Source of the DNA: Apium graveolens
Lineage: Eukaryota > Streptophyta > Magnoliopsida > Apiales > Apiaceae
NCBI RefSeq assembly: GCF_009905375.1
Contig: NW_027420698.1
Coordinates: forward strand, 1-64,000
Length of the DNA stretch: 64,000 bases
Direction: 5' to 3'
A program made the translations under genes and the position numbers. The notes under the pieces were generated by a model, which was not told the DNA's origin, did no database searches, and saw nothing but the letters and a program-made list of their open reading frames with translations. Positions 1 to 54,817 of this stretch are shown piece after piece (positions within the stretch are counted from its first letter, which is position 1; every line of letters begins with the position of its first letter).

Positions 1-97
1 AAATTAAAACCCAATTAAAAATAGGAGAATGAAAAAAGAAAACAGCCCCAAATCGAAGAAAGTACACATAAATCGATGTGGGTGTGTATGAAGTGTA

Positions 98-300
98 TTG
101 GTTCTGGTTGTAAGATTGAGAGAGAGGGAGATAGAGGGGGAGAGACGGAGAGAAGGAGAGAAGGGAAACATTGAGAAGGGAGATTGTATGATGAGATTGA
201 ATAGCGGCGGCCGGGTATTATATTTAGGGATTGAGAAAGAAGGGGGGAAACCAAAATCTGAGAAGGGGGAAATGAAATATTGGCCGGTGGAGGGAACCTA
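98..300 (-). promoter_or_regulatory. GA-rich (CT-rich on minus strand) leader of element A
   Basis: This is a purine-rich stretch of GAGAGAGGGAG-type runs ending with GGGGGGAAACCAAAA and GGGGGAAATGAAA blocks. The same blocks occur at 23165-23390 in element B. On the minus strand this is a pyrimidine-rich tract typical of plant 5' leaders, so it is probably the promoter-proximal leader of a minus-strand gene lying before base 1. The short frames through it are composition artefacts. Confidence 0.45.
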
Positions 301-446
301 ATCTTAGTCATGATTTAGTAAAAAATATCAAATTTACAAGTAGCTGCATTTAAATAATAATAACATCAAATAATTTTCAGTATAAAAATTGAAAATTGAA
401 AATTATTTTTTACAGTATTAAATGTAATAACATTAACATTCTACAA
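301..446. other. AT-rich spacer between leader and array
   Basis: AT-rich DNA with no recognisable gene or motif; it separates the GA-rich leader from the first degenerate satellite monomer. Confidence 0.4.
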
Positions 447-3400
447 GATCATCGGAAAAATATCTTTTTAAAAATTAATCTTGTAAATCGGGAACGAGTC
501 TCGTTGTCGGGAGGGGTACTTTTACCGGATTTTTCTAATCCTGACATGCAAGATGAAGTTCATATTTTTTAATAATTTTTTCATATGACTAAAATTGATA
601 TATCTTAACATCCGTACGGTTGGATCGTCAAAAAAATCATTTTAAAAATTAATCTTGTAAATCGGGAACAAGTCTCGTTGTTGGGAGGGGTACTTTTACC
701 GGATTTTTCTAATCCTGACATGCAAGATGAAGTTCATATTTTTAATAATTTTTTCATATGACTAAAATTGATATATCTTAACATCCGTACAGTTGGATCG
801 TCGAAAAATTCATTTTAAAAATTAATCTTGTAAATCGGGAACGAGTCTCGTTGTCGGGAGGGGTACTTTTACCGGATTTTTCTAATCCTGACATGCAAGA
901 TGAAGTTCATATTTTTAATAATTTTTCATATGACTAAAATTGATATATCTTAACATCCGTACGGTTGGATCGTCGAAAAAATCATTTTAAAAATTAATCT
1001 TGTAAATCGAGAACGAGTCTCGTTGTCGGGTGTGGTACTTTTACCGGATTTTTCTAATCCTGACATGCAAGATGAAGTTCATATTTTTAATAATTTTTCA
1101 TATGACTAAAATTGATATATCTTAACATCCGTACGGTTGGATCTTCGAAAAAATCATTTTAAAAATTAATCTTGTAAATCGGGAATGAGTCTCGTTGTCG
1201 GGAGGGGTACTTTTACCCGATTTTTCTAATCCTGACATGCAAGATGAAGTTCATATTTTTTAATAATTTTTTCTTATGACTGAAATTGATATATCTTAAT
1301 ATCCGTACGGTCGGATCGTCGAAAAAAATCATTTTAAAAATTAATCTTGTAAATCGGGAACGAGTCTCGTTGTCGGGAGGGGTACTTTTATCGGATTTTT
1401 CTAATCCTAACATGCAAGATGAAGTTCATATTTTTTAATATTTTTTCATATGACTAAAATTGATATATCTTAACATCCGTACGGTTGGATCGTCGAAAAA
1501 ATCATTTTAAAAATTAATCTTGTAAATCGGGAACGAGTCTCGTTGTCGGGAGGGGTACTTTTACCCGATTTTTCTAATCCTGACATGCAAGATGAAGTTC
1601 ATATTTTTTAATATTTTTTTCTTATGACTAAAATTGATATATATTAACATCCGTACGGTCGGATCGTCGAAAAAATCATTTAAAAATTAATCTTGTAAAT
1701 CGGGAACGAGTCTCGTTGTCGGGGGGGTACTTTTACCGGATTTTTCTAATCCTAACATGCAAGATGAAGTTCATATTTTTTAATAATTTTTTCATATGAC
1801 TAAAATTGATATATCTTAACATCCGTACGGTTGGATCGTCGAAAAAATCATTTTAAAAATTAATCTTGTAAATCGGGAACGAGTCTCGTTGTGGGGAGAA
1901 GTATTTTTACCGGATTTTTCTAATCCTGACATGCAAGATGAAGTTCATATTTTTTAATAATTTTTTCATATGACTAAAATTGATATATCTTAACATCCGC
2001 TACGGTTGGATCGTCAAAAAAATCATTTTAAAAATTAATCTTGTAAATCGGGAACAAGTCTCGTTGTTGGGAGGGGTACTTTTACCGGATTTTTCTAATC
2101 CTCACATGCAAGATGAAGTTCATATTTTTTAATAATTTTTTCATATGACTAAAATTGATATATCTTAACATCCGTAAAGTTGGATCGTCGAAAAAATCAT
2201 TTTAAAAATTAATCTTGTAAATCGGGAACGAGTCTCGTTGTCGGGAGGGGTACTTTTACCGATTTTTCTAATCCTGACATGCAAGATGAAGTTCATATTT
2301 TTTAATAATTTTTTCTTATGACTGAAATTGATATATCTTAACATCCGTACGGTCGGATCGTCGAAAAAATCATTTTAAAAATTAATCTTGTAAATCGGGA
2401 ACGAGTCTCGTTGTCGGGAGGGGTACTTTTACCGGATTTTTCTAATCCTAACATGCAAGATGAAGTTCATATTTTTTAATAATTTTTTCATATGACGCAA
2501 ATTGATATATCTTAACATCCGTACGGTTGGATCGTCGAAAAATCATTTTAAAAATTAATCTTGTAAATCGGGAACGAGTCTCGTTTTGGGGAGGGGTACT
2601 TTTACCCGATTTTTCTAATCCTGACATGCAAGATGAAGTTCATATTTTTTAATAATTTTTTCTTATGACTAAAATTGATATATCTTAACATCCGTACGGT
2701 CGGATCGTCGAAAAAATCATTTTAAAAATTAATCTTGTAAATCGGGAACGAGTCTCGTTGTTGGGAGGCGTACTTTTACCGGATTTTTCTAATCCCAACA
2801 TGCAAGATGAAGTTCATATTTTTTAATAATTTTTTTCATATGACTAAAATTGATATATCTTAACATCCGTACGGTTGGATCGTCGAAAAAATCATTTTAA
2901 AAATTAATCTTGTAAATCAGGAACGAGTCTCGTTGTCGGGAGAGGTACTTTTACCGGATTTTTCTAATCCTGACATGCAAGATGAAGTTCATATTTTTTA
3001 ATAATTTTTTCATATGACTAAAATTAATATATCTTAACATCCGTAAAGTTGGATCGTTGAAGAAATCATTTTAAAAATTTATCTAGTAAATTGGGAATGA
3101 GTCTCGTTTTTTGGAGTTGTACTTTTACTAGATTTTTTCTAATCCTCACATGCAAGATGAATTTGAAATTTTTTAATAATTTTTTCATATGACTAAACTT
3201 GATATATCTTAACATCTATACGGTTGGATCATCCAAGAAATCATTTTAAAAATTAATCTTGTAAATCGGGAATGAGTCTCGTTGTCGGGAGGGGTACTTT
3301 TATCGGATTTTTCTAATCCTGAAATGCAAGATGAAGTTCATATTTTTTAATAATTTTTTCATATGACTAAAATTGATATATCTTAACATCTGTACGGTTG

Positions 3401-5377
3401 GATCGTCGAAAAAATCATTTTAAAAATTAATCTTGTAAATCGGGAACGAGTCTCGTTGCTGGGAGGGGTACTTTTACCCGATTTTTCTAATCCTGACATG
3501 CAAGATGAAGTTCATATTTTTTAATAATTTTTTCTTATGACTAAAATTGATATATATTAACATCCTTACGGTCGGATCGTCGAAAAAATCATTTTAAAAA
3601 TTAATCTTGTAAATCGGGAACGAGTCTCGTTGTCGGGAGGGGTACTTTTACCGGATTTTTCTAATCCTAACATGCAAGATGAAGTTCATATTTTTTAATA
3701 ATTTTTTCATATGACTAAAATTGATATATCTTAACATCCGTACGGTTGGATCGTCGAAAAAATCATTTTAAAAATTAATCTTGTAAATCGGGAACGAGTC
3801 TCGTTGTCGGGAGAAGTATTTTTACCGGATTTTTCTAATCCTGACATGCAAGATGAAGTTCATATTTTTTAATAATTTTTCATAGGACTAAAATTGATAT
3901 ATCTTAACATCCGTACGGTTGGATCGTCAAAAAAATCATTTTAAAAATTAATCTTGTAAATCGGGAACAAGTCTCGTTGTTGGGAGGGGTACTTTTACCG
4001 GATTTTTCTAATCCTGACATGCAAGATAAAGTTCATATTTTTTAATAATTTTTTCATATGACTAAAATTGATATATCTTAACATCCGTACAGTTGGATCG
4101 TCGAAAAAATCATTTTAAAAATTAATCTTGTAAATCGGGAACGAGTCTCGTTGTCGGGAGGGGTACTTTTACCCGATTTTTCTAATCCTGACATGCAAGA
4201 TGAAGTTCATATTTTTTAATAATTTTTTCTTATGACTGAAATTGATATATCTTAACATCCGTACGGTCGGATCGTCGAAAAAAATCATTTTAAAAATTAA
4301 TCTTGTAAATCGGGAACGAGTCTCGTTGTCGGGAGGGGTACTTTCACCGGATTTTTCTAATCCTAACATGCAAGATGAAGTTCATATTTTTTAATAATTT
4401 TTTCATATGACGCAAATTGATATATCTTAACATCCGTACGGTTGGATCGTCGAAAAAATCATTTTAAAAATTAATCTTGTAAATCGGGAACGAGTCTCGT
4501 TGTCGGGAGGGGTACTTTTACCCGATTTTTCTAATCCTGACATGCAAGATGAAGTTCATATTTTTTAATAATTTTTTCTTATGACTATAATTGATATATC
4601 TTAACATCCGTACGGTCGGATCGTCAAAAAAATCATTTTAAAAATTAATCTTGTAAATCAGGAACGAGTCTCGTTGTCGGGAGGCGTACTTTTACCGGAT
4701 TTTTCTAATCCTAACATGCAAGATGAAGTTCATATTTTTTAATAATTTTTTCATATGACTAAAATTGATATATCTTAACATCCGCACGGTTGGATCGTCG
4801 AAAAAATTATTTTAAAAATTAATCTTGTAAATCAGGAACGAGTTTCGTTGTCGGGAGAGGTACTTTTACCGGATTTTTCTAATCCTGACATGCAAGATGA
4901 AGTTCATATTTTTTAATAATTTTTTCATATGACTAAAATTGATATATCTTAACATCCGTACGGTTGGATCGTTGAAGAAATCATTTTAAAAATTTATCTA
5001 GTAAATTGGGAATGAGTCTCGTTTTTTGGAGTTGTACTTTTACTAGATTTTTTCTAATCCTCACATGCAAGATGAATTTGAAATTTTTTAATAATTTTTT
5101 CATATGACTAAACTTGATATATCTTAACATCTATACGGTTGGATCATCCAAGAAATCATTTTAAAAATTTATTTAATAAATCGTGAACGAGTCTCGTTGT
5201 TTGGAGTTGTACTTTTACTAAAATTTTCTAATCTTCACATGCAAGATGAATTTAATTTTTTTTATAATTTTTCATATGAATAAAATTGATATATCTTAAC
5301 ATCCGTACAGTTGGATCTTTGAAAATTTCATTTTAAAAAATTTATCTAGTAAATCGGGAACGAGTCTCGTTGTTTGG
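447..5377 (+). repeat. Tandem satellite array 1, about 28 monomers of ~173 bp
   Basis: The monomer carries, in order, CATCCGTACGGTTGGATCGT, a TTTTAAAAATTAATC block, GGGAACGAGTCTCGTTGTCG, a GGAGGGGTACTTTTACC block, CATGCAAGATGAAGTTCAT and TTTTTTCATATGACTAAAAT. Spacing measured between the conserved ATCGGG sites is 172-174 bp in the first units. Each monomer has the dyad AACGAGTCTCGTT and the palindrome CCGTACGG. Variant positions (CATATG/CTTATG, TTGG/TCGG before ATCG, ACCGG/ACCCG) are not random: they form an 11-monomer higher-order repeat. Outer monomers near 3090-3240 and 5000-5377 are most diverged. The frames 1213-1413 and 4169-4369 are made only of this repeat and are not genes. Confidence 0.95.
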
Positions 5378-6710
5378 GTATTGTTAAAGACCATTTATGT
5401 GGTACTTACCCCTATATCGAAATAAATTAAGAAAAAACAATATATTCAAATGGATAGATATTAAATGGCTCATTTGACTTTTCTTTCCTCATACAGTGTC
5501 TGTCTGTAATATTTTAAACTTAACAAGTCCTGAATCATTCATATGTATAGTTATCGACTATATTTCGAAAGTAATGACGAGATCTACGTATGTATATGAT
5601 TACGATACAACATATTATAACGAAAAAATATAAGTTATTTATTTCGTATAACCTTAGTGATATTTAAACATGTGTTTGATAATGTGAGTTTTTACATGCC
5701 AATCACTTCTCTTGTAGCACATTTTGAAAGCGTACGGTATCGATTCAAGTCCCATTCAAGTCTTTGGGATTGTCAAGAAATTTGATGTCAATAGACAATG
5801 GCTTTAACGAAAAAGACTTGTTTGTATAGGTTCTTACAGTGGATTTTCGCCCAACTCGTTGCCTTATATTTTGTCAAAAAGGTTGATGTCATGACACAAT
5901 GGTTTCCTAAAAAAGGCTTGTTTGTACACTTTCGTACAATGGTTTAATTTTAAAACTATTGTCTTATATTTTAGAAAATCATTCTTCCAAACCTAAATCA
6001 CCTTCAAAAAAAATTCAAATTTTTTTTAAAAATTCAGGCAGGAATCTAAATAAAATAGAGGGGAAACGAAAATTTTAATTTTTTGTAAATCAACGGCTCA
6101 GAATAGTCTATTCATAATCCAACGATAAAGAAAATGTGACTTTTTTTAATTTTATATAAATAAAATTTACAGTAAAATAATTCAAGCCCTGTGAAAATTA
6201 GACACCTATTTTTCATGAAAGTTGTTGTAACATATTTTCTAATGCAGGTTATTCAGACAACGAGTAAGACACCATTGTCTGAAACTCTTTTACTCAACAG
6301 AGGTGATAAACTATTGTTTGTTATGCTTTGTTTCTAACATTGGTTTTTCTGCACCATTGTCTCAAATAAATAACACATTGGTACCGGAAAACCATTGTCT
6401 AAGTTGCACAACAGTCCTTAAAACCCATTGTGTAAAACAATAGAAAACACACCGGTTTATTGTGACCTAAACAACACTTATACCAATAGAAGTCACACAA
6501 TGAGGATGAATACAACCATTGTCTCATTGGAGCACAGGGGCACCATTTAGACAATATTTTTGAATAAGTTGAATCACCATTGTGTGAAACAGAATGATAC
6601 AAGGCTTTTTGGTCAACTACCAAATAACCGTTATCTAATTTTTTGGGACAACAGTTTTTTTGGCCACCATTGTGTAACAGGTGTTGTCTGATTCAGTTTC
6701 TGGTGTAGTG
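5378..6710. repeat. Subterminal repeat region of CACTA A
   Basis: There are many short motifs of the type ACAATGGTTT, CCATTGTCT and TTGTCTGA in both orientations, most dense from about 5780 to 6700. Such subterminal motif clusters are where the En/Spm TnpA-type protein binds in studied CACTA elements. The first ~400 bases (5378-5780) are AT-rich with no clear motif. The frame 6399-6623 lies in this repeat and is rejected as a gene. Confidence 0.6.
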
Positions 6711-7228
6711 ACACATAGTTTTCAAGGCCTCTCAGGCCTCTTTTAGTGTTCCTTTTTCCGCAATTGAGGTAACATATTATCTGGCCGACCCTGATACAAG
6801 TTGTGTACTTATTCTTGGCCAGTGTTGGATAGCTCAAACCTATCGACCCTCCTTGTTTGGCTTTGTTTATATCCATTACTGATATTTCCGACTTTCTCCG
6901 AGAAATCCTAAGCTCTGATACCAAATATTGTCAATATATTTATATTAACTGAATGATATAAAACTAAGAAAAGCAAAACACAGCTTTCCAAAAAAATACA
7001 CCTTCTTATTTCTGCAAACTGAGGCAATAAAAAAGAAATACACTAGGAAACTGAAAATACTAAAAATCAGGACACGATCACCTGCCCACAACCTACACTA
7101 ACTCTATTTCCTTTACTCAATCAAAACTCCTAAAACAACGGACCTGAAAACAAACACTACACAAAATAGACGTTGGTAACTCTTTATTCGAAAATAACGT
7201 ATAACCCAAAGTTTAAGATTCACCAACA
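6711..7228 (-). mobile_element. Copia-4 5' stub in duplication copy 1 (LTR, PBS, start of gag)
   Basis: This holds a 303-bp LTR (6926-7228) followed on the minus strand by the primer binding site TGGTATCAGAGC (6912-6923), which matches initiator tRNA-Met primed Copia elements, then the start of a gag frame (about 6711-6900, reading MDINKAKQGG). The same sequence lies at 46771-47288, where the rest of the element follows. Here the gag is cut at 6710 by the end of CACTA A. The bases after the LTR, GTACT (7229-7233), match the TSD of the copy-2 element. Confidence 0.85.
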
Positions 7229-7238
7229 GTACTTTCAT

Positions 7239-8040
7239 CCTATGAAATTTTGTCTAAAGAACTAACCTTTAGTTATAATTTTTTTTCTTGTGGAAAATAA
7301 ATTTTGGTAAAATAGTAATATTGTTCTAATATACTTAGTATCCAGTACTCATTTAGGTTTTTACTCTTCTAATATACTTAGTTTTTAGCACTCATTAAGT
7401 ATTTTAGAAGTAGAAGGACCTAGATTTTGGATGTGGGTTACAATTAAGTTGTTCTAATTTCATGTTTCTTTGGTTTATTTTTGTTGTAGTATTATCCCTT
7501 ATTGTTGGCTGTAGTATATGCTCATCACGCTTTTCTCATGGGGATATTCGAATTTATGTATACATAGTTTATTTTTCCTTTATATGTGTATTCTAATGGC
7601 TTACAATTTGTGAGAGAAATCCATTCTTATAACGATCAAAGACAATACTAATATGTGCACGTTCTTTTTTATATGATAACAATAAACATAATATATTATA
7701 TAAATAGTTTATTATGAGATATATAGCTATACCCATATATAATGTACTTTGCATTTACCTGCCATGTTTAATCCTAACACCACAGTGGTACATGTTAGTA
7801 TATTTGAGATACCAGGAGATTGTTGGTACCCTTAAAACCCCCTCCCCCTCTCCCTCTCTTCTTGTAATTTTTTTTATGTTTTTTCTTAAATTCAATTCTC
7901 ATGAAAAACTGCGTACATTTGGGTATTGTTTCTAATTTTCTACTATATCAATTTTAATTTGATGCAATCTATTTAGATGTCTCTATATATAAATTTATTG
8001 GTTTTTCATAATTTTAATGACTTTATTTGTTATCTGAATT
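7239..8040. other. Non-coding stretch left of PHO1 fragment
   Basis: AT-rich DNA. 7239-7463 is unique to copy 1; 7464-8040 is matched at 47306 onward. A CCCTCCCCCTCTCCCTCTC run sits near 7841. The frame 7714-7935 shows no family features and differs between the copies, so I do not call it a gene. Confidence 0.5.
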
Positions 8041-8046
8041 AAAGTA

Positions 8047-8578
8047 ATGATCCACACTATGAATGGTTGGATAGTGCTAAGGAGATAACTCATCTTGCTT
8101 CCGATGTTTCTACTAAAACTGCTTCACTAGCAGCTTCTACTCCTTATGCAAGTACTAACTCTTTCTATATATTTATATATCTTTATATATACTTATACTT
8201 TTGTATTTGTCTCCTTATTTCCCCGAAGACTCATTATATATGCTAACTTTGCAGGTAGTTAAGGTAATTGACAGGGTTGAAGCCACTTTTATTAAGCATT
8301 TTTTAAATTCTAATAGAAAGAAAGGGCTTAGCATTCTAAGACCAAAAGCTAGGAAGGAAAGACATAGAGTAACTTTCTCTTTAGGTACATGTATATATCT
8401 AATTTTTTTTCTTTTACATTTTTGCTATATATTCCTGTTTCCTTCGGACAGTTTTATGTCTTGGTATATAATTCATCTCCATACAACTACCACTACAGGT
8501 TTCTTTGTCGGGTGCACAAAAATGTTCATTTCTGCTCTTGTTTTTCTCATTCATGCTCACCATCTTCTAAACAAATAA
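8047..8578 (+). pseudogene. PHO1-type phosphate exporter fragment (SPX-EXS family), copy 1
   Basis: Two exons with good splice borders are readable. Exon 8255-8384 starts after TTTGCAG and ends before GTACAT; it reads [16 protein letters not shown] followed by a stretch ending [20 protein letters not shown]. Exon 8499-8578 starts after CACTACAG and reads [20 protein letters not shown], then a stop. The motif [12 protein letters not shown] and the SILRPKA-ERHRVTF block followed by GFF-GC and a hydrophobic segment belong to plant PHO1 proteins, just before their first membrane helices. A third open piece (8047-8150, reading YEWLDSAKEITHLASDVSTK) may be an upstream exon. The fragment covers only a small part of the family's ~750-800 residues, so it is a DNA-level captured remnant, not a working gene. 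Confidence 0.75.
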
Positions 8579-8619
8579 GTCCAAGTACAGTATATGATAA
8601 CAATGTTTCCTTTGTATAG

Positions 8620-8950
8620 GTCATTTAGAGCTCAATTCCTTAGTATTAATCTGATCGTATTATGCTACCAAGTGCGTGTAACTAACAAACATATTTGTTT
8701 ACTTTCTTCCTCTGGAGCTTGATTTTGTCATATCTCATAGCGGAATCATACTTACATGTGCATTTCATTGCATCAAGTAACTATTTAACGGACGTAAAAG
8801 ATCAGTTTTGTACTAGTGAAACCACATCAACTAACTAGAAAATATTGCTTAAGCATACAAGTCTTCCGAATAACTTAAAACGTAATCTACTACAAAGCAT
8901 GTTCTTTTTGTAACCAACCATATAATAATGTCTTAAGCTGGATAGCAAAA
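8620..8950. other. Intergenic stretch between PHO1 fragment and minus-strand exons
   Basis: No gene, repeat or RNA signal seen; duplicated at about 48457-48780. Confidence 0.5.
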
Positions 8951-8974
8951 GGTTAAGTTGGATTACCATCAGCT

Positions 8975-9151
8975 CTGTGTCGCTTGAATACGAGTAATTT
9001 TCTCTCGTGTTGGGGAAACATTTTTAGGTGGTTGCCCTTCCTTCGGTACCTCGCTCGGGGCAGGCAACTTGCCAGGTAAAAATATTTTAAAAGACTTCTT
9101 TCTTGCCTCAGCTTCCTCTGATGCAAACATACGAGCTGCTTCAATTCACTC
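8975..9151 (-). pseudogene. Unrecognised captured exon (EAARMFASEEAEARKK), copy 1
   Basis: On the minus strand an exon-like stretch follows the acceptor AATGACAG at 9151 and reads, after an early stop, IEAARMFASEEAEARKKSF, then a proline-rich part with KNVSPTREKITRIQATQS. It is charged and low in hydrophobic residues. I do not recognise the family. It lies downstream, on the same strand, of the exons at 9875-10228 and may belong to the same captured gene. In copy 2 a 5-base loss breaks the frame. Confidence 0.4.
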
Positions 9152-9874
9152 CTGTCATTAATAATATATACTAGTTAAAAGTGTTTCCATGAAAACATTT
9201 ATACTACAAATTAACAACATATGTGTAAATGCCATAAAAATATAAATGTTAACGCACATGCAATCAACGGGCTAAAAGAGAATCTATACTATCATATATG
9301 TCAAAATTATGAAGCAAGCACAAGAACATTAAAATTTTAAACCACAGAACACATAATTTTCATAGCATAAGTATACAGGCTCCAACTATAGGAAGATAAC
9401 TTTTTGTTACATATAAAAGTTACTCTAACCTATGTCAATAAAAACAACCACTCAGTTAATTGGTAAAAAAGGACTGACCTTTTGTTAAACTTACTTGAAA
9501 TCCAACACACACAGTGATTTGAGTTTATAGATAACATACAATCGATAGTTAGGTTTCTTGGTAATGTTGTTATCGATCACACGAAGGAACATGAGCTTCA
9601 AGAGATATGCAAGCGGAGTTAACATTCTATTCCATTCCGCCGAACAATATAGAGCAATAAAGTATTGTTGTCACTAGCTATCCAAATTTTTTTGTGACAG
9701 TAAGATGTAAAGAAAAATTGGATAATAACATATATGTAACATAGTGGCATAAAAAAATAAACAATCATGAAAAGAACATTGTAATCTATAAAAATAATTT
9801 AAAGGTTTATAACAAATTAGTGCTACTAGAGATATTTCTCCTCTGCTGCTAATTCTGCAGGGTGTTTGTTGTAC
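9152..9874. other. Intron-like / non-coding stretch
   Basis: AT-rich DNA between two minus-strand exon-like segments. No gene seen; the frame 9674-9889 overlaps the edge of the next exon and continues past its donor site. Confidence 0.4.
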
Positions 9875-10228
9875 TTGCCATTCTCGCATTAATTCATCAA
9901 TGAGAGCTTGGCCATAGGGACAGCTTCTGTTTAATTTCCGTGAAGGCTTAACAATACGAGAAGTCTGACCAATTGCTTTTCTGATCTCCTTAGGTTGTAT
10001 GTCAAATTCTTCAGCTGCAAAAAGTAAGGCGACTCTGATTTAGCAAAAAAGAGTAAGGAGGCATTGAACTAAAAACCATATTTAGATAGAAAATATTATT
10101 AAAGAAAAAAAATTAGAAGTCTAACCATCATCTTCAATGTCAATGATGATAGTTTTACGCTTGTCTAAACAAGGTTTTTTTCTGCTTGTCCCAGAGTATT
10201 TGTTGTCGGTTCCGGCCTCCTCCAAGTT
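9875..10228 (-). pseudogene. Unrecognised two-exon captured gene fragment, copy 1
   Basis: Two minus-strand exons: one ending at donor GATG|GTTAGAC (about 10126-10228) that in copy 2 reads GTDNKYCGTSRKK and then KTIIIDIEDD; the other 9875-10014, after acceptor TTTTTGCAG, reading AEEFDIQPKEIRKAIGQTSR and ending ALIDELMREWQ before GTACAA. Both exons and both splice sites are kept in copy 2 (49705-50066). The protein is acidic then basic and probably nuclear or cytosolic; I cannot name its family. Intron retention shows genomic capture. In copy 2 it is joined upstream to an F-box-like exon, so the unit looks chimeric. Confidence 0.45.
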
Positions 10229-11387
10229 ACACCCTTAGAGGAAAAATATATATTAGTGAATACTCCATAAGCATAACATTAGAGGAAAAATTACTAGATT
10301 GGATTTGGCCGAGAAATAACTATTTGGGGTTTCAAGGGGAGAGACAAAGAAAGGGATTCTTTTTAAGAAAACAAGAGGCTCTACACCTTTAGTAAGGATA
10401 AAAGAGGCTTTATAAGGGGAGGGAAGGAGGGCTAGGACAAGGGAAGAAGGAGGCTAGGAGAAGAAGGTGCTTTGAACTTTAATGGACCCTATATATTAAA
10501 ACCCTAATTTAATAGACGACCTAGACTAAATAATTTAAAAAATCCCTAATTCTAATGGCTGATTAAAATACTAATTAAAATTTACAACTCACATATCTAG
10601 CAAATTCACTGGTCCATCATATTCACTAAATCAAAAAAAATCAATCATATCATATTTCTGCAAATAAAACTTTAAATCATGAAAAATAATTAATAAATAC
10701 TAGAACATTTTTTACCAAGTTAATATTATATTTTTTAGTAAATTATATATTTACGAGACTGCAAATTATTTTTCTTAATTTTGATGTTGATTATTAATAA
10801 AAAAATATTTAATTTTGGAATATATTTTAATTTTTACTATTAATTTATTATATGACACTAAAATATAAAGTTTACTTTTTCTTTACAACACTGCTCAGTA
10901 AAAAATATTTTTTAAAAATAGGAAGTGATATTTTTTTTATTTATGAGGCATGCATATAAATATTATCTTTTCTTAATTCTATTATATGATAAAAAAATTA
11001 TTTTTCTTTTTACGAAATGAATATTATTTTATACTACTATAATACAATGTAATACCAATATAATAATTTTGTTTATGCAAATCACATTTATCTATGTGGG
11101 TCTTGTGTGTATATTTTAAAATTTATAAAATTTAATTTATTTCACAAATTGGTAATGCAAAATGATTGAAATTCAAGAAATAATATAAATAAAATGTATT
11201 GAGGAATTAAATTATTTCTTAATTTAATGTATGGACTTATAAATTAAAATATACTTAAAAAGGAATTAAAATGAGTACCTTTTAATTGTTAATCTTTAGA
11301 TATTTTTAACAACATGAACGATAAATGTAGAAGAATATAAATAAAATTCGTTATTATATAAATTTTACTACATTAGTGTACCGTAAC
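10229..11387. other. GA-rich then very AT-rich spacer, copy 1
   Basis: 10320-10480 is purine-rich (GGGGAGGGAAGGAGGGCTAG) and resembles a leader read on the minus strand. 10500-11387 is AT-rich with poly-A/T runs and no coding signal. It is matched at 55196-56327. The frame 10186-10392 runs through the GA-rich part without family features. Confidence 0.45.
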
Positions 11388-13500: not shown

Positions 13501-13535
13501 CAACGTGGGGTTTGACCTCCGATTATATATATATG

Positions 13536-13800
13536 ATTAAAGTTCTATGGAGTCCACCGTTTAATTGGAGTCCTCTGAGTCCATCTATATTTTACAAATA
13601 AAATATTTTTTAAAACATGTTATATTGAAAAATATGTTTCACAAATATCATTATTTCAATAAAATTATACAAATCTCATACATTTACAAGTACAATATAT
13701 TTCTTCTGCAACATGACCATTTATGTTCTACAAACTAAACGTATTTTGTTAAATAATATATGTTGTAATATTATACTTGTAAAATGTATACAATGTGCAA
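13536..13800 (+). mobile_element. Truncated MULE-type MITE, copy 1
   Basis: It starts AAAGTTCTATGGAGTCCACC and continues with GGAGTCCTCTGAGTCCATCT, the same terminus as the complete element at 38155-38562. Only the left terminus and part of the interior are present; CACTA C begins 15 bp further right. The same truncated piece is at 58518-58780. Confidence 0.65.
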
Positions 13801-13979
13801 GATTTTCAAACAATCACTACTAGAAATAGTGCCTACAACATCACCCCTTTTACATCGGTTAGAAATGTCACCGATGTTAAAAGCAGTTTTAACATCGGTT
13901 ACTTTAAAACCGATGTTAAAGGTGTTGTAAGACATCAGTATCGAAACCAACTGATGTCAATAATCATTTTTTTTAAATA

Positions 13980-14215
13980 AAATAAAAAATGCCCGCTTCA
14001 TTCTTTCCCCTGTAAATACATCAAAAAATTCCCCGTTAACCAAATTTTTTATTCTCAGTTTCCCCCCTCTCCCTCTCTCTCAGCTCTCTCATTCTCTCAT
14101 CTCTCATTCTCTCTTCTCCTCTGTTCTCTCTTCTTTCTCACTGTCTTGTTTCTCTTCTCTCTCATTTCTCACTGTCTCTTTTCTCACTCACTCTCTTTAA
14201 CCTAAAACCCCTAAA
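13980..14215 (+). promoter_or_regulatory. Pyrimidine-rich leader of C, left side
   Basis: TTTCCCCCCTCTCCCTCTCT-type sequence followed by AACCTAAAACCCCTAAAA, typical of a plant 5' leader reading rightward into the ABCC fragment. The duplicate (58965-59225) has the same with small repeat-number changes. Confidence 0.4.
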
Positions 14216-14841
14216 ATTTATATGAATTAATAAACTCGATTAATTCATAAATCGTGGTTGATTGGTGCTGAAGAGCCTTGAAGGAAGTCTGGACCACTCG
14301 ATTAGTGTGTGAAAAATATGTTTTTTCGAATTTAATTTCAAATTTTATGTTTTGATTTTAATCGAGTTCATTTTTTCTATTTTATGTTTTTTCGAGTTTG
14401 ATTTTAGGTTTCTGGAGCTGGTTTGGTTAATCTTGACGTGGGTTTGCTCGATTAGGTAAGATTTCACACGCATTTGTACATTTTTTACTTTAATAGATGC
14501 ATGTGTTCCTCTTTAGTCTTGTCTAATTTTAATAGACGCATGTGCATGGATCCTGTGTAGTTTATGTTGAGTATGTTCTTGTTATGTTTAGTTTATGTTA
14601 TTTATGTTGTGTTCCTCACTATATATTTTTGTTCTTGTTTATGTTCTTGTTTATGATCTTGTTTAGTTTAGGTATGGAATTGTATATGTGTAAACATGTG
14701 TAGCTGTAATAATTAATTTATATGTTTAATTATGCGTGTTACAAGCATTCATATTAAAAGCTTGATGAGGACGATATGTATTATGTTTTACTGTTATATA
14801 TCTGATTTGGCATACATCATTTGACAAATTTTGTGTGACAG

Positions 14842-18279: not shown

Positions 18280-19595
18280 CTGTGGAGAAAGGTAAATCTC
18301 TAGTACTGCCAACATTTGAGAGGAAGATAAATCATAAACACTTATAAGTGAAACAACAGTAAACTGAGTGGCTAAAGTGGTAGAAGAAATTAGAGCAACT
18401 TGCCTCTTCCATGCATGTGGATCTTAATCATACATGCACTCGTATACTCACTGAGCAGTCCAACTCTCAGTCCACAACATAGGCTTGTTGGGACCAATAC
18501 ACAAAGGCAGCATTCCGCAAAGCCCAGCTTTAGAAATCCAATAAATAGGTAATAGATAAAACAGAATGCACAACACCGCAACCAAAGAAAATGCAACTTT
18601 TCACATTAAAAAACAAACCTGAAATCCCCATTGCAATTAAATAAAGATTGGTCTAAACAACAAGTTAGCATTATCCACTTCTATATCAATACAAAACAAT
18701 CCAAATTCAACAAAAACAATCTTTCGATATAAAAATCAAAACTTTAGAAGTTAAAATACTGATTAAATTACTGAATAACCTGACAGAAGTAGTAGAATTA
18801 TCAGAAAGTTAAGGCTGTGGTGCTGATAAACTGCAAAAGCAACGACCCCTTTTACCATAATCACTAAACAACTCAGCCCTTTTCTAGAAACCCCTCTGAA
18901 TTCTTCAAGAACTTATAAAATCACAAGCAAAATCAGCAAAACAATAGATACAATATACATACAAATACAAGAAATATGAATGTATATGTGTAGAAAAAGA
19001 GGGGTAAAGAATAATAGAAGTACATGAGTGGGGAAGTAGCGGAGAGATTTAGAAAGTGAGAGAGAATTGAAGTGTGGCTCATCCTTCTTCGATTCTTAAG
19101 CAAACCCCAAGATTTTGGTTTTTAGAGTTTACAATTCTCAGTCCACAGCAGTGCCTTCCATTGCATGTTTCTATCTGAAAGTTGAAAGTTCCAGGAATTA
19201 GCACTTATTTATACAAGGCACTCGGACAATCGTATAAACACTCGGACACTTTAGGCCAAAAAGATGTAAAAAAAATAAAATATTGCCCCGAGTCTGATAC
19301 TTCTTACACATGCCCGTGTTTAAAAACTACTCTAACAAAGAACATTTCATATTTTGCTACTTCATATCACTGTACTTAAAGCTTTCTTCAGAACTTATAA
19401 TAATAGCAAGCATCACAAATTCATATGTAAGTAATTACAGATTAGCTTTGTGAAAGTAATTCAAAGCACATTGTTAATTTGCAATACAATACAATCAGAA
19501 AGTACATTAGCTCTGTAGAAACACACCATTTGCCACATTATTACTGCAGTAGAAATGCATAATCTAGAAATCTGTAACAGACACATGTTCAGTAC
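18280..19595. other. Leader / spacer between SINAT and CDKA fragments
   Basis: 18280-19180 is probably upstream (intron and 5' leader) DNA of the SINAT fragment read on the minus strand. 19182-19595 shows no gene. The frames 18390-18596 and 19182-19379 have no family features. Confidence 0.35.
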
Positions 19596-19779
19596 CTGAC
19601 AATATTTCCTGCTACATCTCCTTTAGTAAAGAAATTTCTCTAATAACAGTGCTTGGCACTCCTTCATCTTCCTGCTCTAGTCGAATTTTCTTTAAAGCAA
19701 TGGTTTCATTTATGACGCGGTCACGAGCCTAATAAACTACTCCATATGTTCCTTCACCAATCTTCTCAACTTTTTCATA
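19596..19779 (-). pseudogene. CDKA (cdc2-type kinase) N-terminal exon
   Basis: Minus strand, 184 bp between acceptor ACATTGCAG and donor CAG|GTACTG. It reads YEKVEKIGEGTYGVVY, stop, [16 protein letters not shown] and then the cyclin-binding helix as [20 protein letters not shown] is the ATP-binding loop, ALKK holds the catalytic lysine, and PSTAIRE is diagnostic of A-type CDKs (here A to V). Exon borders match plant CDKA genes, where the exon starts at Y of YEKVEK and ends after NIVR. Two stops (the usual K of VVYK, and Q after KEM) and a one-base loss near the end inactivate it. It is joined in phase to the upstream exons at 19888 and 27204. Confidence 0.9.
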
Positions 19780-19887
19780 CTGCAATGTTTAAAAATTCTG
19801 GTAAATATAGGAAGAGAATATTTACAAGTATAATAAGATGAATTCTATGTAAACTTTGCAAATGATAGACTGACAAGTTCTGAGTAC

Positions 19888-19975
19888 CTTCACTTGGCTA
19901 GCCAATTCTGCTTCCTCGGCCTCTAAGAAAGTTCTTAAAATCACAAGATCTGCAAAGGCTTTTCCCAGGTCTTCA
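19888..19975 (-). pseudogene. Coiled-coil-like exon of a chimeric gene, part 2 (split by B)
   Basis: Minus strand. It reads AEDLGKAFADLVILRTFLEA then EEAELASQVK and ends at donor AAG|GTACTC. The exon's first bases are on the other side of element B (27126-27133, after acceptor CCTATCAG). With B and its TSD removed conceptually, the frame is open and in phase 0 with the exon before (27204-27308) and with the CDKA exon after. The sequence is acidic and heptad-like; I do not recognise the family. Confidence 0.55.
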
Positions 19976-21030
19976 CACTACAAGGAAAACAAGCTTCAAC
20001 AACGGTTTATGTCCGTTGTCTGATACCCTATTTTCCCGTTGACTATTGAGCCGCCGTCTGTTAGTTGGATCAGACAACGGCTAAAAAACATTGTCTGAGA
20101 TTATACAGACAATGATTATGGATTAAGCCCGGTGTATTACATCCAGAAAAGATAACATTTTTTGCTTGTTTTCGTCGTAACAAGCGACATTACTCAAGGG
20201 TTCTCAGAAACTCAGAAAACCGTTGTGTAAGGTATAACATTAAAGCCAATCCTACAACACTTATTGTTGTATAAACGTTGTTGTGTATTCAGATAGACAA
20301 CAAAAATGAAATTGAGCTCGTAGAACTCTTGTAATAAATTTCTACACACAACAGTTTTGGATTTTAATGTATGGCATGATCAGATACATACAACTGTTTA
20401 TTTGTCCAAACGTATTGCATGAATACCTTTGATACAATATCTTAATATTATATAGACAATGGTTTACTAGTGTTGTGAAAGTTAATTTTGCACCAAAGTT
20501 TTGTGTTCGAAAGCATTGTTTTAGTATTAAAGACATGATATTTTAATGAAGCTTGGTTCTTAAAAGCGTTGTCTTACACAAAATATAACAAGTAATCAAA
20601 TGAAATTAACTTTGCAAATCTAAACAAAAGTTCTAAAGTTAATCCATGATCGAAAATCACAACAACATAGTTATACAAAAGCTAAAAGCATATTGATATC
20701 ACTGCCTTCATGAGTCTAAGATTTCTACTAAAAATTAAAGAAAATATAGAGTCTACAAGGATTTGATGTTGGCTACTCAGAGCTCATTTGGCCTTTTCAG
20801 GTTCTCTTCACATTTTCCGTAAGAGCTATGTTGTCCTTGCAATATCATTACAGCTTGTGATAGGCAATTTCCCAATCTGGAGAAAACAATCTTCAAAATA
20901 AATCGACAACCACTCTTAAGTTAATATTCTTTTCCTTCCTGCATTATAAGAAAAACAAAGAACTGGATCTCTTAATATAAAGTGAAATCAAACCAAGACG
21001 TAATAGAAAATAAACAAATGCCCATAGTGT
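19976..21030. other. Left subterminal region of B
   Basis: To about 20600: motifs such as ACAACGGTTT, CCGTTGTCTG, ATTGTCTGAG and AACGTTGTTGTG. From 20740 to 20930 there is broken exon-like sequence on the minus strand with several stops and no recognised family. The frame 20342-20536 is repeat-derived and rejected. Confidence 0.5.
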
Positions 21031-21032
21031 CA

Positions 21033-21194
21033 CCTGGCTCACTTCCATGAAGAGACTGTCAATGTCCTGCTTTGTAAAGATACCACCTTTCCTCGCAGTT
21101 TCTCTTGGTGAAGATTGGGAGGTCCCGCTTGTAACAACTTCATCTTTTCCTCTTTTGTCAACCTCCTTTTTCAAATCATCTATCCCGAAAATCT
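21033..21194 (-). pseudogene. Exon-like segment inside B
   Basis: Minus strand, acceptor CTCTATAG and donor CAG|GTGACA. It reads IFGIDDLKKEVDKRGKDEVV, continues through TSGTSQSSPRETARKGGIF and ends KQDIDSLFMEVSQ. It is charged, with a serine/threonine-rich middle. It may come from a captured host gene or from a diverged CACTA TnpA-type protein; I cannot tell which. Confidence 0.4.
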
Positions 21195-22730
21195 ATAGAG
21201 AAAGTCGAAGTACACATAAAATTCACTTAAAATAAGATTGACAAACTACATGCTAGGTTCTCAAAATTTCCAAATAAAAGGAGGCCTCAAACATATACAG
21301 AAGGCAATTTGTAAACCAGGGCACATAGATTTGTAAAGTAATCCATAATTATGCTTCTTTTTTCGTAAAAAGTTCAGCTGCTTTGTAGCTAGCTGATTAC
21401 CTAAAAATAGTTTCAAAAACCCTTAAAATAAACGTCCATATGTCAACATTTAAGGTTACAGACACTACTACAGAAACGTACAGTACTACTGGCATAATGT
21501 TCTCCCATCAGTACATCATTTGAAAACACCTGTTCAACACATCATCATTAGTGTTGCTAATAAATGAGTACATAGACTTCTTAAGCTACATTGCTACGTC
21601 ATACCTTCACTTGTACACTGAACTTATGAAGTAAAAGCGATACATATTATTTTGCCTAAGAAATAAGAACTCTCTTAATACTATAATATAACAACTTATA
21701 TTTTTCTTTCACGGATATTTTCTATGCATAAAATAAATAAATGTTATACTTTATGGGGGAACTGAACTTAAAATTCAGGGGACACAATTATGAATATTGT
21801 TAGTTGAGTGGGAGAACAATACGAACTGCAGGATGCAAAAGAGCTAGTCACACTAAATCTATATACATTATTAACAAGAATAATTTGTTATGTACATTCT
21901 CCAAAAGTGAAATATCAGGAATTCTATAAAAATGTATCCCCACGGGTGCTCATAGCTCTTAAGTCGCAATCCAGACTGCACCTTAATCAACTTATGCTCC
22001 AGGAGAACAAATAAGCCTGCTAGATTAACTATACCTACTGGTAGACACTACTAGTAACATATCTTGTTTTGTTCACTAGTTGAATAAAAAGAAACCATCT
22101 GCCATTGCAAAATCATTCAACAGTTGTCTCAAGATAGATCATTTTTATATCACAATTTCAATCTTACTAGTTACTAAATGAAGTCAACTAAGAACTAGAC
22201 TATTTCTTTAATATCTTAACTGGCGAGAAAATTTTAGAAATGAATAACAAATGAAAGATACAAGTAAAGATGTGATACAGTTCAGGCCATATCATACAGT
22301 TTCGTATTTGAGGAGTTTCAGTCTCTTCCTTCTTTGTTTGTCATTCTGAAATTCCTGTTTCATGACCACAAGTATAAGGGGTTTAGCATGCTAAAAGCTA
22401 ATACTGATGACTGTTTTGACTTTTTATGAAGCAAATGAATAGGAGTAATGATACCGTAACATAGAAGTGGGAAGATTGAAAAAAATAAAGAACAACCAAC
22501 CTCATACATTACTTTCTTATTGACTGGTGCAGTGTTAGCCACTGAATGGTTGCTTTCAGTTTTAAGAACTCGCCCTCACTTTCGTCATCTACGGACTATA
22601 AAATTAGAATCAATCAGCAATTGCAAGATAATCTTGAAATTATAACTCAACAATAATAATAATAAAAAAGAAAAAAGAGGGTAACAAGTTTCAGACCTCC
22701 TGGTATAGTTGTGACGAGTGAGAGCGTTGT
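21195..22730. other. Intron-like DNA with weak exon signals inside B
   Basis: AT-rich DNA. On the minus strand near 22500-22610 there is a short readable piece (DDESEGEFLK, then HSVANTAPVNKKVMYE one frame over) ending near a GTTGGT donor. Nothing else recognised. Confidence 0.3.
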
Positions 22731-22738
22731 TGAGTTTA

Positions 22739-22951
22739 GACATTGACAATGTGTTTGACAATATCCCTGAGCCAGAGACTGTCCGTAATCTTTGTAACAA
22801 AATCTCCATTCTCTCTATCCTTAATTAAATCATGAAAAACATAATTATTTTCAACTTCAGCTACTGAGATGGTGATTTTGTTGGATAGAGATGAAGTAAC
22901 AAAACGAGGAAGGGGAATGGGATAGAGAGAAATAGAAGGTGTTCCCATGGA
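22739..22951 (-). pseudogene. First exon-like frame of the minus-strand gene in B
   Basis: An ATG on the minus strand at 22949-22951 opens MGTPSISLYPIPLPRFVTSS, continuing to DLIKDRENGDFVTKITDSLW before a stop. The start (serine/proline rich, few acids) is the type seen in organelle-targeted proteins. It lies ~210 bp downstream of the GA-rich leader, so this ATG may be the natural start of the element's gene. Family not recognised. Confidence 0.4.
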
Positions 22952-23164
22952 GTAAATTAAGCACAACAAACATATAACCTAACCTTGCAAATGATAAACA
23001 GGTACTAATCAGTCATGCCCTGAGCTTGAAAGGTTTGAACTCCAAAAAATATTCCTCAAAATTGTCGCTTTGAACTTGAAAATCAAGGAGATTAGAAATT
23101 CCAACCTTCAATTTTCTAATTGAGAAGCTGAATTCATATGTAATTTTGTGAAAGAGAAACAAGA

Positions 23165-23390
23165 TTGGGTGAGGGAGATGGTCAAGATTTAAAAACTAAA
23201 AAACCAGACAGAGAGAGGAGAGAGATGAGTCGTGGGAGAGAGATGGAAGACTACGCAGAGAAAGAATCAGGAGGAGAAGAGGAGTCAGATCTAACAAAGG
23301 GGAATGGGAGAGATAAGGGGAAAATGAAAATTAGAAGGAAGGGGGAAATGAAAATTAAAGGGGGGAAACCAAAAATTGTGTAAAAATGAA
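23165..23390 (-). promoter_or_regulatory. GA-rich leader of element B
   Basis: Purine-rich runs (GAGAGAGGAGAGAGATGAG) ending with GGGGGAAATGAAAATTAAAG and GGGGGGAAACCAAAAA, shared with 98-300 of element A. It lies between the exon-like frames and the satellite array and reads as a CT-rich 5' leader on the minus strand. 23391-23637 after it is AT-rich spacer. Confidence 0.5.
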
Positions 23391-23637
23391 AAAATCATAA
23401 ATTAATTTATTTATTTATATATTATAATTAAATACTTATCTTTATTTTACTTTATATTAATAGAATATTATTTATTTTAAATAATTTCACATAATTTTTT
23501 ATATAAAATTATTTGAAACAAATTTGAAAAATTTCAATATTTTTCTATATAACTAACGTTAATATATATTAATATTATGCAAAATGATCCTAAAACCATT
23601 TTTTAAGAAAGTAATTATTTAATCAAGAAAGAGACTT

Positions 23638-25112
23638 ATTTTTCATATGACTAAAATTGATATATCTTAACATCCGCACGGTTGGATCGTCAAAAAAATC
23701 ATTTTAAAAATTAATCTTGTAAATCTGGAACGAGTCTCGTTGTCGGGAGGGGTACTTTTACCGGATTTTTCTAATCCTGACTTGCAAGATGGACTTCAAA
23801 TTTTTTAATAATTTTTTCATATGACTAAAATTGATATATCTTAACATCCGTACGGTTGGATTGTCGAAAAAATCATTTTAAAAATTAATCTTGTAAATCG
23901 GGAACGAGTCTTGTTGTTAAGAGGGGTACTTTTACCGGATTTTTCTAATCCTGACATGCAAGATGAAGTTCAAATTTTTTAATAATTTTTTCATATGACT
24001 AAAATTGATATATCTTAGCATCCGTACGGTTGGATCGTCAAAAAAATCATTTTAAAAATTAATCTTGTAAATCTGGAACGAGTCTCGTTGTCGGGAGGGG
24101 TACTTTTACCAGATTTCTAATCCTGACTTGCAAGATGGACTTCAAATTTTTTAATAATTTTTTCATATGACTAAAATTGATATATCTTAACATCCGTACG
24201 GTTGGATCGTCGAAAAAATCAATTTAAAAATTAATCCTGTAAATCGGGAACGAGTCTCGTTGTCGGGAGGGGTACTTTTACCCGATTTTTCTAATCCTGG
24301 CATGCAAAATGAATTTCAAATTTTTTAATAATTTTTTCTTATGACTAAAATTGATATATCTTAACATCCGTACAGTTGGATCGTCGAAAAATCATTTTAA
24401 AAAATTAATCCTGTAAATCGGGAACGAGTCTCATTGTCGGGAGGGGTACTTTTACCAGATTTTTCTAATCCTGGCATGCAAAATGAATTTCAAATTTTTT
24501 AATAATTTGTTCTTATGACTAAAATCGATATATCTTAACATCCGTACGGTTGGATCGCCGAAAATCATTTTAAAAAATTAATCCTGTAAATCGGGAACGA
24601 GTCTCGTTGTCGGGAGGGGTACTTTTACCAGATTTTTCTAATCCTGGCATGCAAAATGAATTTCAAATTTTTTAATAATTTTTTCTTATGACTAAAATCG
24701 ATATATCCTAACATCCGTACGGTTGGATCGTCGAAAAATCATTTTAAAAAATTAATCCTGTAAATCGGGAACGAGTCTCGTTGTCGGGAGGGGTACTTTT
24801 CCCAGATTTTTCTAATCCTGTCATCCAAAATGAATTTCAAATTTTTTAATAATTTGTTCTTATGACTAAAATCGATATATCTTAACATCTGTACGGTTGG
24901 ATCGTCAAAATTTTTTTTAAAAAATTAATCATGTAAATCGGGAACGAGTCTCGTTGTTGGGAGGGGTACTTTTACCAGATTTTTCTAATCCTGACATTCG
25001 AGATGAATTTCAAATTTTTTAATACTTTTTTCATGTGACTAAAATGAGTAATTATTAACATCCGTACGGTTGGATCCTCTAAAAAATCATTAAAAAAATT
25101 TATCTTTTTCAT
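23638..25112 (+). repeat. Tandem satellite array 2, about 8.5 monomers of ~173 bp
   Basis: Same monomer as array 1: CATCCGTACGGTTGGATCGT, TTTTAAAAATTAATC, GGGAACGAGTCTCGTTGTCG, GGGGTACTTTTACC, with a spacing of 174 bp measured between the first two units. The right-hand monomers form a subgroup (GGCATGCAAAATGAATTTC, AAATCGATATATC, AATCCTG), showing local homogenisation. A lone partial monomer follows at 25354-25432. Confidence 0.93.
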
Positions 25113-27125
25113 CAGGTATGAAAAAAATCTAGTACGAGGCAACAGCCAACGGTTTTTTATGAAAAAGTCTTGTCTGAAATAAATTGTGACAACAGTTTTT
25201 TTGAAAAAAACCGTTGTCTTAGATGATCAACTTTTTTAAATCTTAAGCCTGATATTAAATCTACTTTTAATCAACGGCTCTAATTACACTAACTCAACAA
25301 TCCAAGTGAATGTTTTTTCACCAATCACATGGTGCCACCTCATCACAAGCAACACTGGTTGGATCGTCGAGAAAATCATTTTAAAAATTAATCATGTAAA
25401 TCGGGAACGAGTCTCGTTGTCGGGAGGGGTATTTTTTTTAATATTTAGGAACTACCACTTTAATTACATTTTCGGTAATTTCAAGCAAGATATATTTGAA
25501 AATTTTAAAATATTTTTTAAGTGAATAAAAACAATATATATTAACATCAACAGTTTAAGGAATATATATTAATAAAGTCAAAAAAATATATGGCATTAAA
25601 AATTATTGTCTGAAATTTAAAATGTGTTGTCTTAACAAAAGTCATACAACAGTTTTTAATATAAAACAATTGTCGGATGTAATATCAACCAAATAAATAG
25701 TGCCAAATTCATACAACGGTTTATAACCAAAAAAGGTTATTTAAAAACAATGTCAATAACGGTTTTCAAGCAAAAAACCGTTGTTGAATCACACAATGGT
25801 ATTTTTAAAAAAGCCTGTTGTGCATAGTTTTATACGACAACGTCTGAGAAAGAAAACCGTTGTAAAAATGTGCCCATTTTTTAGCTTATTTATTCATAAA
25901 TATTTATTATTTAACATTATTAACGATCTGATACACGTTATCGGTATTATGTTATTAGTAGGTTTTAATTATTAGGTATATTTGAAATCTTAATACACAC
26001 AAATTAATTTAGTGTAAGTTATTGGTTACTCGTATAAATTAATTAACGGTGGCATATAAATTTTCCGAAAAAAATTTAAAACTAGTAAAAATATAGACAA
26101 CGTTTTTTTCTAAAATCATGTTGTGGTAAGTTACTTTACATAAGTGTTTTTTAGGAAATGTCGTTGTTGGAATTCTACAACAGTTTTTTCTTTAAGATTG
26201 TTGTAGTATTACATATTTTACAACAGATTATAAATATCGATAACCGTTGTCTAACTGTTACAAGTGTTTTATTTTAAAAATACTTGTATAAGGTAGATTA
26301 ATATAACGTTCTTTTTTGAAAAACACTTGTTTGGATTGAACAATTAACAATGTAAACTTGAAGCACTTGTGATTAATTTTTTATTAATTATAAAGTAGAT
26401 AATTAAACTATTTTGTAATATAAAATTTAAATATTTAATCTAGATGAAAGTGGAATTAATTAGAGTTTTTTGTTTTTAAAAAATTTAAAATGAATTGTTT
26501 GGAAATTATTTTTTCTGAAATTATTACTATTTTTATTGTAATAAACTAGACAACGATTTATTTGAATATTTTGTTGTGCAACACATTTTTAAATTTAGTA
26601 AGAAAGACAACGGTTTTAAGAATTAGACTATTGTCTGATATAGGTGACATATAATATATGTAGAACACTTGTCTATCAAGTATCATTTAGACAACACCTA
26701 ATTTGTACATTGTGTGATTCGAGCTTAACTAACTAGTAGAAAAAATACTTGTCTCATTTCCACAACCGTTAAACAAGACGTTATCTCAATCATTTTCAGA
26801 CAATGGATTTTAAAAATCGTTGTACGATTTTACTCATTTGCACAACATCACCTTAGAAAGGGTTGTCTGTCTCCATCAACTAGACAATGGGTTTTAAAGC
26901 GTTGTAGTAATACTAAAGCCTTCCCATTCACACAACATCTTAATTTTGAAAACACTTGTCTGATTTGTTTTACTAGACAACATTTTTTTATCGCTTGTAG
27001 TAATCAACGTCAGACAACGCCAATTTTTTGGTTGCAAAAAAACTGTTGTATGAAAAATTCGGGCAACACTTTTTTGGTCGAGTGTTGTCTAATCGGTGTT
27101 GTCTGATTGCATTTTTCTTGTAGTG
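25113..27125. repeat. Right subterminal repeat region of B
   Basis: Dozens of copies of ACAACGGTTTT / AAAACCGTTGT / TTGTCTGA / AACACTTGT motifs in both orientations. These are the expected subterminal binding repeats of a CACTA element. The partial satellite monomer at 25354-25432 is embedded. The frames 25306-25524 and 25781-25975 are repeat-derived. Confidence 0.7.
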
Positions 27126-50192: not shown

Positions 50193-50243
50193 ATTAGTTT
50201 TCACAAAATTAAATTTCTTGAAATATTTCCTCCAGGTAGATTT

Positions 50244-50556: not shown

Positions 50557-50558
50557 AT

Positions 50559-54815: not shown

Positions 54816-54817
54816 GA

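Follow-up and report, generated by a model that had tools for sequence, protein, structure and literature searches.

A satellite-like tandem array that is probably carried, moved and resized within a family of non-autonomous CACTA elements of Apium graveolens

Two transposon-like elements in the DNA of Apium graveolens, termed A and B, each hold an array of the same tandem repeat, and the question is whether this array is a part of the elements that travels with them or satellite DNA into which they were inserted. The window analysed is the whole stretch of bases 1-64000 of contig C3650, in a genome of 3.33 Gb. A preliminary description of this window had given both elements the same order from the right, a terminal inverted repeat with ATCAGACAACACC, a subterminal region, the array and a GA-rich leader, and this order was confirmed. 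Its monomer period of ~173 bp is corrected to 174 bp by Tandem Repeats Finder (TRF), and the array sizes that it put at about 28 and 8.5 monomers were measured as 28.3 and 8.4 copies. The best explanation, to which we assign a probability of about 0.85, is that A and B belong to one large family of CACTA (En/Spm-type) elements, are themselves non-autonomous, and have a satellite slot that is carried, moved and resized in place.

CACTA membership is indicated by several features of the ends. Terminal inverted repeats are present at B (CACTACAAGG/CACTACAAGA) and at a copy of A on C7 (CACTACAAGA/CACTACACCA), and 3-bp target duplications were found at six insertions, namely ACA for A (on C7), TCA for B, and TCA, TAA, ACT and TGT for insertions on C5, C4, C1 and C8, respectively. 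Subterminal repeats of the motif TYAGACAAYGGT occur in both orientations at both ends, amounting to 143 sites on the two strands of eight terminal regions when up to 3 mismatches are allowed, and the core of the motif is enriched relative to the window background. The terminal sequence ATCAGACAACACC lies on the minus strand in both elements; allowing up to 2 mismatches, it has 7 matches in the window against 1.36 expected, and none of 100 shuffles reaches 7. With regard to the Transposase_21 (tnp2) domain, the C7 copies of A and B and an element on C8 have no open reading frame of at least 110 amino acids to the left of their arrays, so these three elements are non-autonomous. Interior reading frames were compared with Pfam: a 93-amino-acid frame in the C7 copy of A matches DUF7722 at 9e-8 and is probably a captured gene piece, the frames of the C7 copy of B gave a Nic96 match below the cut-off only and did not identify a gene in the interior of B, and those of an element on C9 gave no match. 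Inspection of the 8.4 kb to the left of the C9 array did not reveal the left end of that element.

The arrays of A and B are 88-90% identical to each other, and outside them the two elements share no sequence at BLASTN E<=1e-5. That the monomer is common to both, and nothing else at this level, is what favours the independent insertion of A and B into pre-existing satellite arrays. The leader had been described as shared. It is GA-rich in both elements, and the likeness between the two extends over only 54 bp at 78%; none of 60 shuffles scores as high, but the same is true for 27 of 45 leader pairs tried, four of them involving a GA-rich stretch of a different comparison family, so this likeness is weak evidence. 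Better evidence comes from an element on C11, the leader of which resembles the leaders of both A and B.

The junctions speak against such independent insertion. The full paralog of A on C7 (L042:3241-9921) is 6681 bp long with ACA at both ends, and its left flank matches window 46300-46775 at 97%, while the DNA to the right of A recurs from 46769 within the window (BLASTN). Since both flanks match around 46769-46775, the ACA at 46771-46773 is the empty site of A, in DNA that, by reading-frame likeness, we take to be a decayed copia-like element. A is a clean insertion and was not inserted into an array. Its extent had been given as 1-6710, and the right end at 6710 stands; at the left, A is truncated because C3650 starts at window base 1. 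As for B, the insertions on C5, C4, C1 and C8, which are of B type or close to it, have flanks unrelated to those of B, each insertion having been compared with B alone. Matching target duplications together with these unrelated flanks indicate that element and array move together. Conserved junctions bound the arrays on either side within the elements, and insertion into existing satellite would require satellite DNA beyond the termini, of which none was seen at the junctions read. Independent insertion, which the preliminary description had itself raised as an objection to its view, is thus scarcely credible.

The attachment of the array to the element was also surveyed across the genome. 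In all 29 array loci with the right side read, the CACTA right region is reached 26-66 bp past the last monomer, and on the opposite side of the array 27 of them have, at a distance of no more than 900 bp, sequence that matches the leader of A or that of B, in some cases over a short length. These loci come mostly from the best-scoring 36 of 3775 candidates, and the count leaves out two pieces of an array at C7:259.8, the right end of which was seen separately. The reverse survey started from right ends chosen by their termini. The last 526 bp of B recur with 98-100% identity at 40 places, B included, among the best 40 of 452 candidates scored, and eight of the 39 other places were picked from those previously unread. 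Monomer sequence was present at the homologous place in 8 of 8, and several monomers in seven; the eighth, L061, retains 80 bp of one monomer and the degenerate last monomer. Together with the difference of 28.3 and 11.3 copies between two copies of A (see below), these counts bear out the earlier view of the array as a stable part of the family with variable copy number.

A position-ordered sample was used alongside these selected loci. Across the genome, 14,714 exact matches were counted for a 22-mer of the monomer and none for its reversed control, and a right-end signature has 815 exact occurrences (control, 1). The first 100 of the 14,714 matches span the initial 111.4 Mb of C1, where they form 12 clusters, three of them already known and the last one incomplete, and where 19 of the signatures lie. 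A correctly oriented signature was found within 3.5 kb of nine clusters and within 12.5 kb of ten, against null means of about 0.003 and 0.012-0.013, with a maximum of 2 in 20,000 trials under two null models, random placement and circular shifts. When the 750 bp past nine of the clusters were read, seven showed the right region, one array overran the read (with the signature in place) and one met an inverted leader. Overall, 11 of the 12 clusters are part of such an element, which the sequence shows for ten and the signature for the eleventh; the remaining cluster is rearranged. The possibility that most arrays lie outside such elements, which had also been named as a challenge, therefore failed where it could be tested, none of the 12 clusters being shown outside. 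The array is thus supported as a copy-number-variable module of the element family that moves with it. The earlier interpretation holds as far as a mobile module of variable length is concerned; its further suggestion, that such elements could seed free satellite DNA, is a conjecture, and no free-standing monomer block was found in this sample of 111 Mb out of 3.33 Gb. The 22-mer has a density of 0.9 per Mb in the sampled stretch compared to 4.4 genome-wide, the rest being about five times denser, so more or larger arrays lie elsewhere. Since 27-100% of monomers hold the exact 22-mer (seven arrays with a reliable ratio, three further rows being left aside), the 14,714 matches would represent very roughly 15,000-55,000 monomers.

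Comparison of copies of A indicates that the array changes its length in place. Copies that, by their right junction and flank, represent one and the same insertion have 28.3 monomers in three cases (the window, C3195 and C2379) and 11.3 in a fourth (C7). Monomers 1, 28 and 29 of the array correspond one to one between the copies, and a divergent monomer found once in the C7 copy is present twice in the window copy, 11 apart (positions 16 and 27); offset 11 also shows the highest monomer identity within the array. Mean identity within arrays ranges from 86% (C9) to 97% (C3, and also a 24-monomer piece of C7:259.8). The runaway array on C3, at about 293.914-293.941 Mb, has a mean within-array identity of 97.2%; it holds a retrotransposon insert of roughly 9 kb, and its left edge lies beyond the stretch that was read. 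An 85-mer typical of this array occurs 418 times in the genome, with at least 48 of the first 100 listed occurrences in this array.

A number of observations weigh against the reading of the array as a mobile module resized in place. The 29 loci are not independent: they include paralogs, tandem duplicates and alternative contigs, and A, B and the C8 and C9 elements supplied the features searched for, so the loci represent fewer independent events and a non-random sample. Two of the 29 have no leader match, C3:293.9, with its left edge unread, and C9:33.87, with weak likeness only. The rearranged C1 cluster, C1:12.998 (L070, C1:12996977-12999494), meets an inverted leader and its right-end signature is wrongly oriented; it is apparently a rearranged element. 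An exact-22-mer array lies beside only 10 of the 19 C1 right-end signatures and is lacking at nine, so the module is common and, by that test, not universal. No transposase-bearing relative was identified, the reading-frame check having covered three elements. Array lengths are derived from assemblies, in which tandem arrays are prone to mis-sizing, the three contigs with 28.3 copies may represent one locus, and the left flank of A is not visible in the window. C3650 and C3195 moreover start at the same base of A, as might be expected if the arrays and their sizes were artefacts of assembly. Such an origin is very unlikely, given that the same junctions occur at many loci on large contigs with differing flanks.

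The 174-bp monomer is not the only tandem unit in this part of the elements. Among 37 relatives of the right end of A that are full length or nearly so (among the best 40 of 347 candidates), a unit with a period of ~590 bp is tandem in 29, with 2 to 10 copies including partial ones by a tally of the listing, and single in eight, which include A and its five nearest relatives. Of two such arrays that were read, the one on C5 starts with 3.8 monomers of 174 bp and continues with 3.0 units of 590 bp, and in the one on C1 a remnant of the 174-bp array precedes 10.0 units of 590 bp. The C8 element has two copies of a subterminal unit of 239 bp, which alternate with arrays of the 174-bp monomer, and degenerate monomers are also found beyond its leader. 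The 239-bp segment is missing, with the array continuous, in 4 of the 8 sampled B right ends, and in L059, L062, L063 and L064 the degenerate last monomer of B-type ends abuts the array directly. In B itself, an extra monomer piece at 25357-25436 (the first 80 bp) is about 80-96% identical to the array monomers. Subterminal motifs exceed chance in the 239-bp unit (0 of 300 shuffles) and in the 590-bp unit (3 of 300). The idea that the 174-bp monomer multiplies a subterminal motif was rejected, since among 300 shuffles 33 did as well as its best site in A and 30 as well as that in B.

These units bear on where the array came from. A free satellite may have been captured once by an ancestral CACTA element and then spread passively, as the authors of a study on Chenopodium quinoa infer in the excerpted text of their paper, where an existing satellite was captured and spread by elements (Belyayev et al. 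2022, PMC8978399). The lack of a significant subterminal motif in the monomer agrees with capture, as do divergent relatives of the monomer at 42831-43252 in the window, next to which no CACTA right end was noticed. On the other hand, the position-ordered C1 sample contains no free array, degenerate monomers lie inside the right region of B and past the leader of the C8 element, and the 239-bp and 590-bp units are tandem at the same place; the degenerate monomers and the other tandem units favour amplification within the element. Capture is a real possibility, at somewhat less than even odds. The divergent relatives comprise a pair of 172-bp repeats at 42906-43246, about 75% like the monomer, and are followed at 43297 by a repeat that recurs at 35376. 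Beyond plant DNA, a 23-mer of the monomer had no match in viral contigs, and a 17-mer matched 4 bacterial or metagenome-bin records in genome contigs, which were taken as chance.

The array could instead be functional for the element, providing extra transposase-binding sites, a spacer or a nucleator of heterochromatin. The retention of monomer sequence in 8 of 8 sampled right ends would fit such a role, and so would the excess of subterminal motifs in the 239-bp and 590-bp units. That excess is absent from the 174-bp monomer, however, copy number varies widely, L061 is down to its two remnants, and nine C1 signatures lack the exact-22-mer array; a function of this kind is therefore unlikely.

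The reading preferred here, of a slot that is carried and resized, can be put as a sequence of steps. A slot between the GA-rich leader and the right subterminal region would be filled with tandem repeats and would act as cargo, element and array being cut and pasted together with a 3-bp target duplication, as the junctions show, presumably by a transposase acting in trans. After insertion, the array would change its length in place between fixed edge monomers through duplicated blocks of monomers, an outcome seen on assembled copies, and the process would most simply be unequal exchange or replication slippage. Amplification would not be bound to one sequence, the neighbouring subterminal 239-bp and 590-bp units being tandem in related elements as well. 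Occasionally an array may run away to tens of kilobases with nearly identical monomers, and the outcome would be a satellite-like repeat dispersed via transposition. A bolder proposal, which we consider rather doubtful, is that the stretch from leader to right end is a place-specific satellite nursery, whose hundreds of dispersed copies seed arrays of tens of kilobases. Any sequence in this place would then tend to be amplified in tandem, as has so far been seen for units of 174, 239 and 590 bp, and rounds of slippage might perhaps be started when the transposase cuts the repeat-rich end or when repair synthesis takes place there.

The coordinates of both elements are collected in the table. 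B sits in DNA that we take to resemble a CDKA-type kinase gene on the minus strand (window 19000-19975). The DNA next to A and around its empty site belongs to a segmental duplication inside the window, 6709-15182 versus 46769-60169, with 93-98% identity; the second copy is interrupted at 50067-55176 by a long copia-like reading frame with 305-bp flanking repeats (98%), and more versions are found on C3195, C2379 and C7 near 200.79-200.85 Mb. Further CACTA-like termini in the window are a right end with ATCAGACAACACC at 29878-30583 and, beside it, an end with a different subterminal motif at 29877. On C1, L065 (C1:163303900-163310900) has an A-type left part joined to another CACTA right end, and is either a chimaera or a nested copy.

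Table. Features of elements A and B in the window (positions in bases; TRF, Tandem Repeats Finder).
Feature	Position	Strand	Remarks
Element A (non-autonomous CACTA), right part	1..6710	+	ends GTAGTG at 6710, then ACA
GA-rich leader of A with GGGGGGAAACCAAAA	1..446	+	98% identity in C7 paralog, abuts its array
174-bp tandem array of A, 28.3 copies, with duplicated 11-monomer block	447..5373	+	TRF
Single copy of ~590-bp-period unit in A	5408..5991	+	tandem in 29/37 full-length relatives of A right end
Right subterminal region and terminal inverted repeat of A	5992..6710	+	motif TYAGACAAYGGT; ATCAGACAACACC at 6680-6692
Right-copy target-site duplication ACA of A	6711..6713	.	matches ACA of C7 paralog
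ACA of paralogous empty site of A	46771..46773	.	in copia-like DNA
Left-copy target-site duplication TCA of B	19973..19975	.	
Element B, complete non-autonomous CACTA element	19976..27125	+	CACTACAAGG... / ...CTTGTAGTG, TCA on both sides
Left terminal and subterminal region of B	19976..20650	+	
Interior of B, without transposase-size reading frame	20651..23000	.	from C7 copy of B
GA-rich leader of B	23001..23638	+	abuts array in B-type copies, 97-99% identity
174-bp tandem array of B, 8.4 copies	23639..25104	+	TRF
Subterminal-type segment of B, about 239 bp	25105..25356	+	doubled together with array in C8 element
Last, degenerate monomer of B, within right region	25357..25600	+	profile match over 1-164
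Right subterminal region and terminal inverted repeat of B	25601..27125	+	ATCAGACAACACC at 27095-27107
Right-copy target-site duplication TCA of B	27126..27128	.	

The preliminary description had treated this case as unknown, and here it has to be revised. According to the excerpted text of PMC8978399, a 16.5 kb CACTA element of quinoa has an array of 32.5 monomers of 171 bp, located past the coding sequence and close to the 3' end; the array is also present in CACTA elements of three further scaffolds, four in all, and fluorescence in situ hybridization (FISH) gives a signal dispersed along the chromosomes. As in Apium, a tandem array inside complete CACTA termini adjoins the 3' end in several elements, whereas the quinoa element has coding sequence and A and B are non-autonomous. 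With this precedent, the present case is less unknown than first thought and becomes a well-resolved variant of a published kind. Kinship of the two monomers was rejected, as a local score of 16 was reached by 193 of 200 shuffles (quinoa monomer taken as 169 letters). The target duplications, the empty site, the size change in place and the further tandem units at the same place go beyond what the quinoa excerpts describe. No report of this case, including satellites of Apium or Apiaceae with CACTA elements, was found in the open-licence literature, though one of the searches, which also missed the quinoa paper, carries little weight.

Other transposons have been linked to satellites, and the comparisons below likewise draw on excerpts of the papers. 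The Jozin CACTA element of Chenopodium is linked to the 40-bp satellite CficCl-61-40 (PMC7320549). It resembles the present family in that CACTA elements are tied to a satellite family, but its start monomer is a fragment of the tnp2 transposase region and not a non-coding module beside the right end. The foldback transposon Tetris of Drosophila virilis, with its TIR-220 repeats, has given rise to longer satellite-like arrays amplified from internal repeats (PMC4079207). Like A and B, it is a DNA transposon, apparently a non-autonomous one, in which tandem repeats lie internally and close to the ends; unlike them, it is a foldback element with the repeats inside the inverted repeats, and its arrays were seen by FISH, compared to sequence alone here. 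Ogre retrotransposons of Lathyrus sativus are the source of nine satellites (PMC7004042), and there too short tandem arrays within a dispersed element occasionally expand, although Ogre is a long terminal repeat (LTR) retrotransposon and expansion occurred mainly in primary constrictions.

New in Apium are the direct evidence of co-transposition, the length change between fixed edges and the amplification of several units at one place. The target duplications are direct evidence of the array as cargo, a mode of spread that the quinoa paper, in its excerpted text, infers. The finding bears on how satellite DNA begins and spreads. With hundreds of dispersed right ends (the 815 signatures), many of them with an array, the modes and rates of array growth can be compared copy by copy, and an empty site, one insertion with differing array lengths and at least one runaway array are all available in the same genome. 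It can thus be asked in Apium graveolens whether chromosome position decides which arrays run away.

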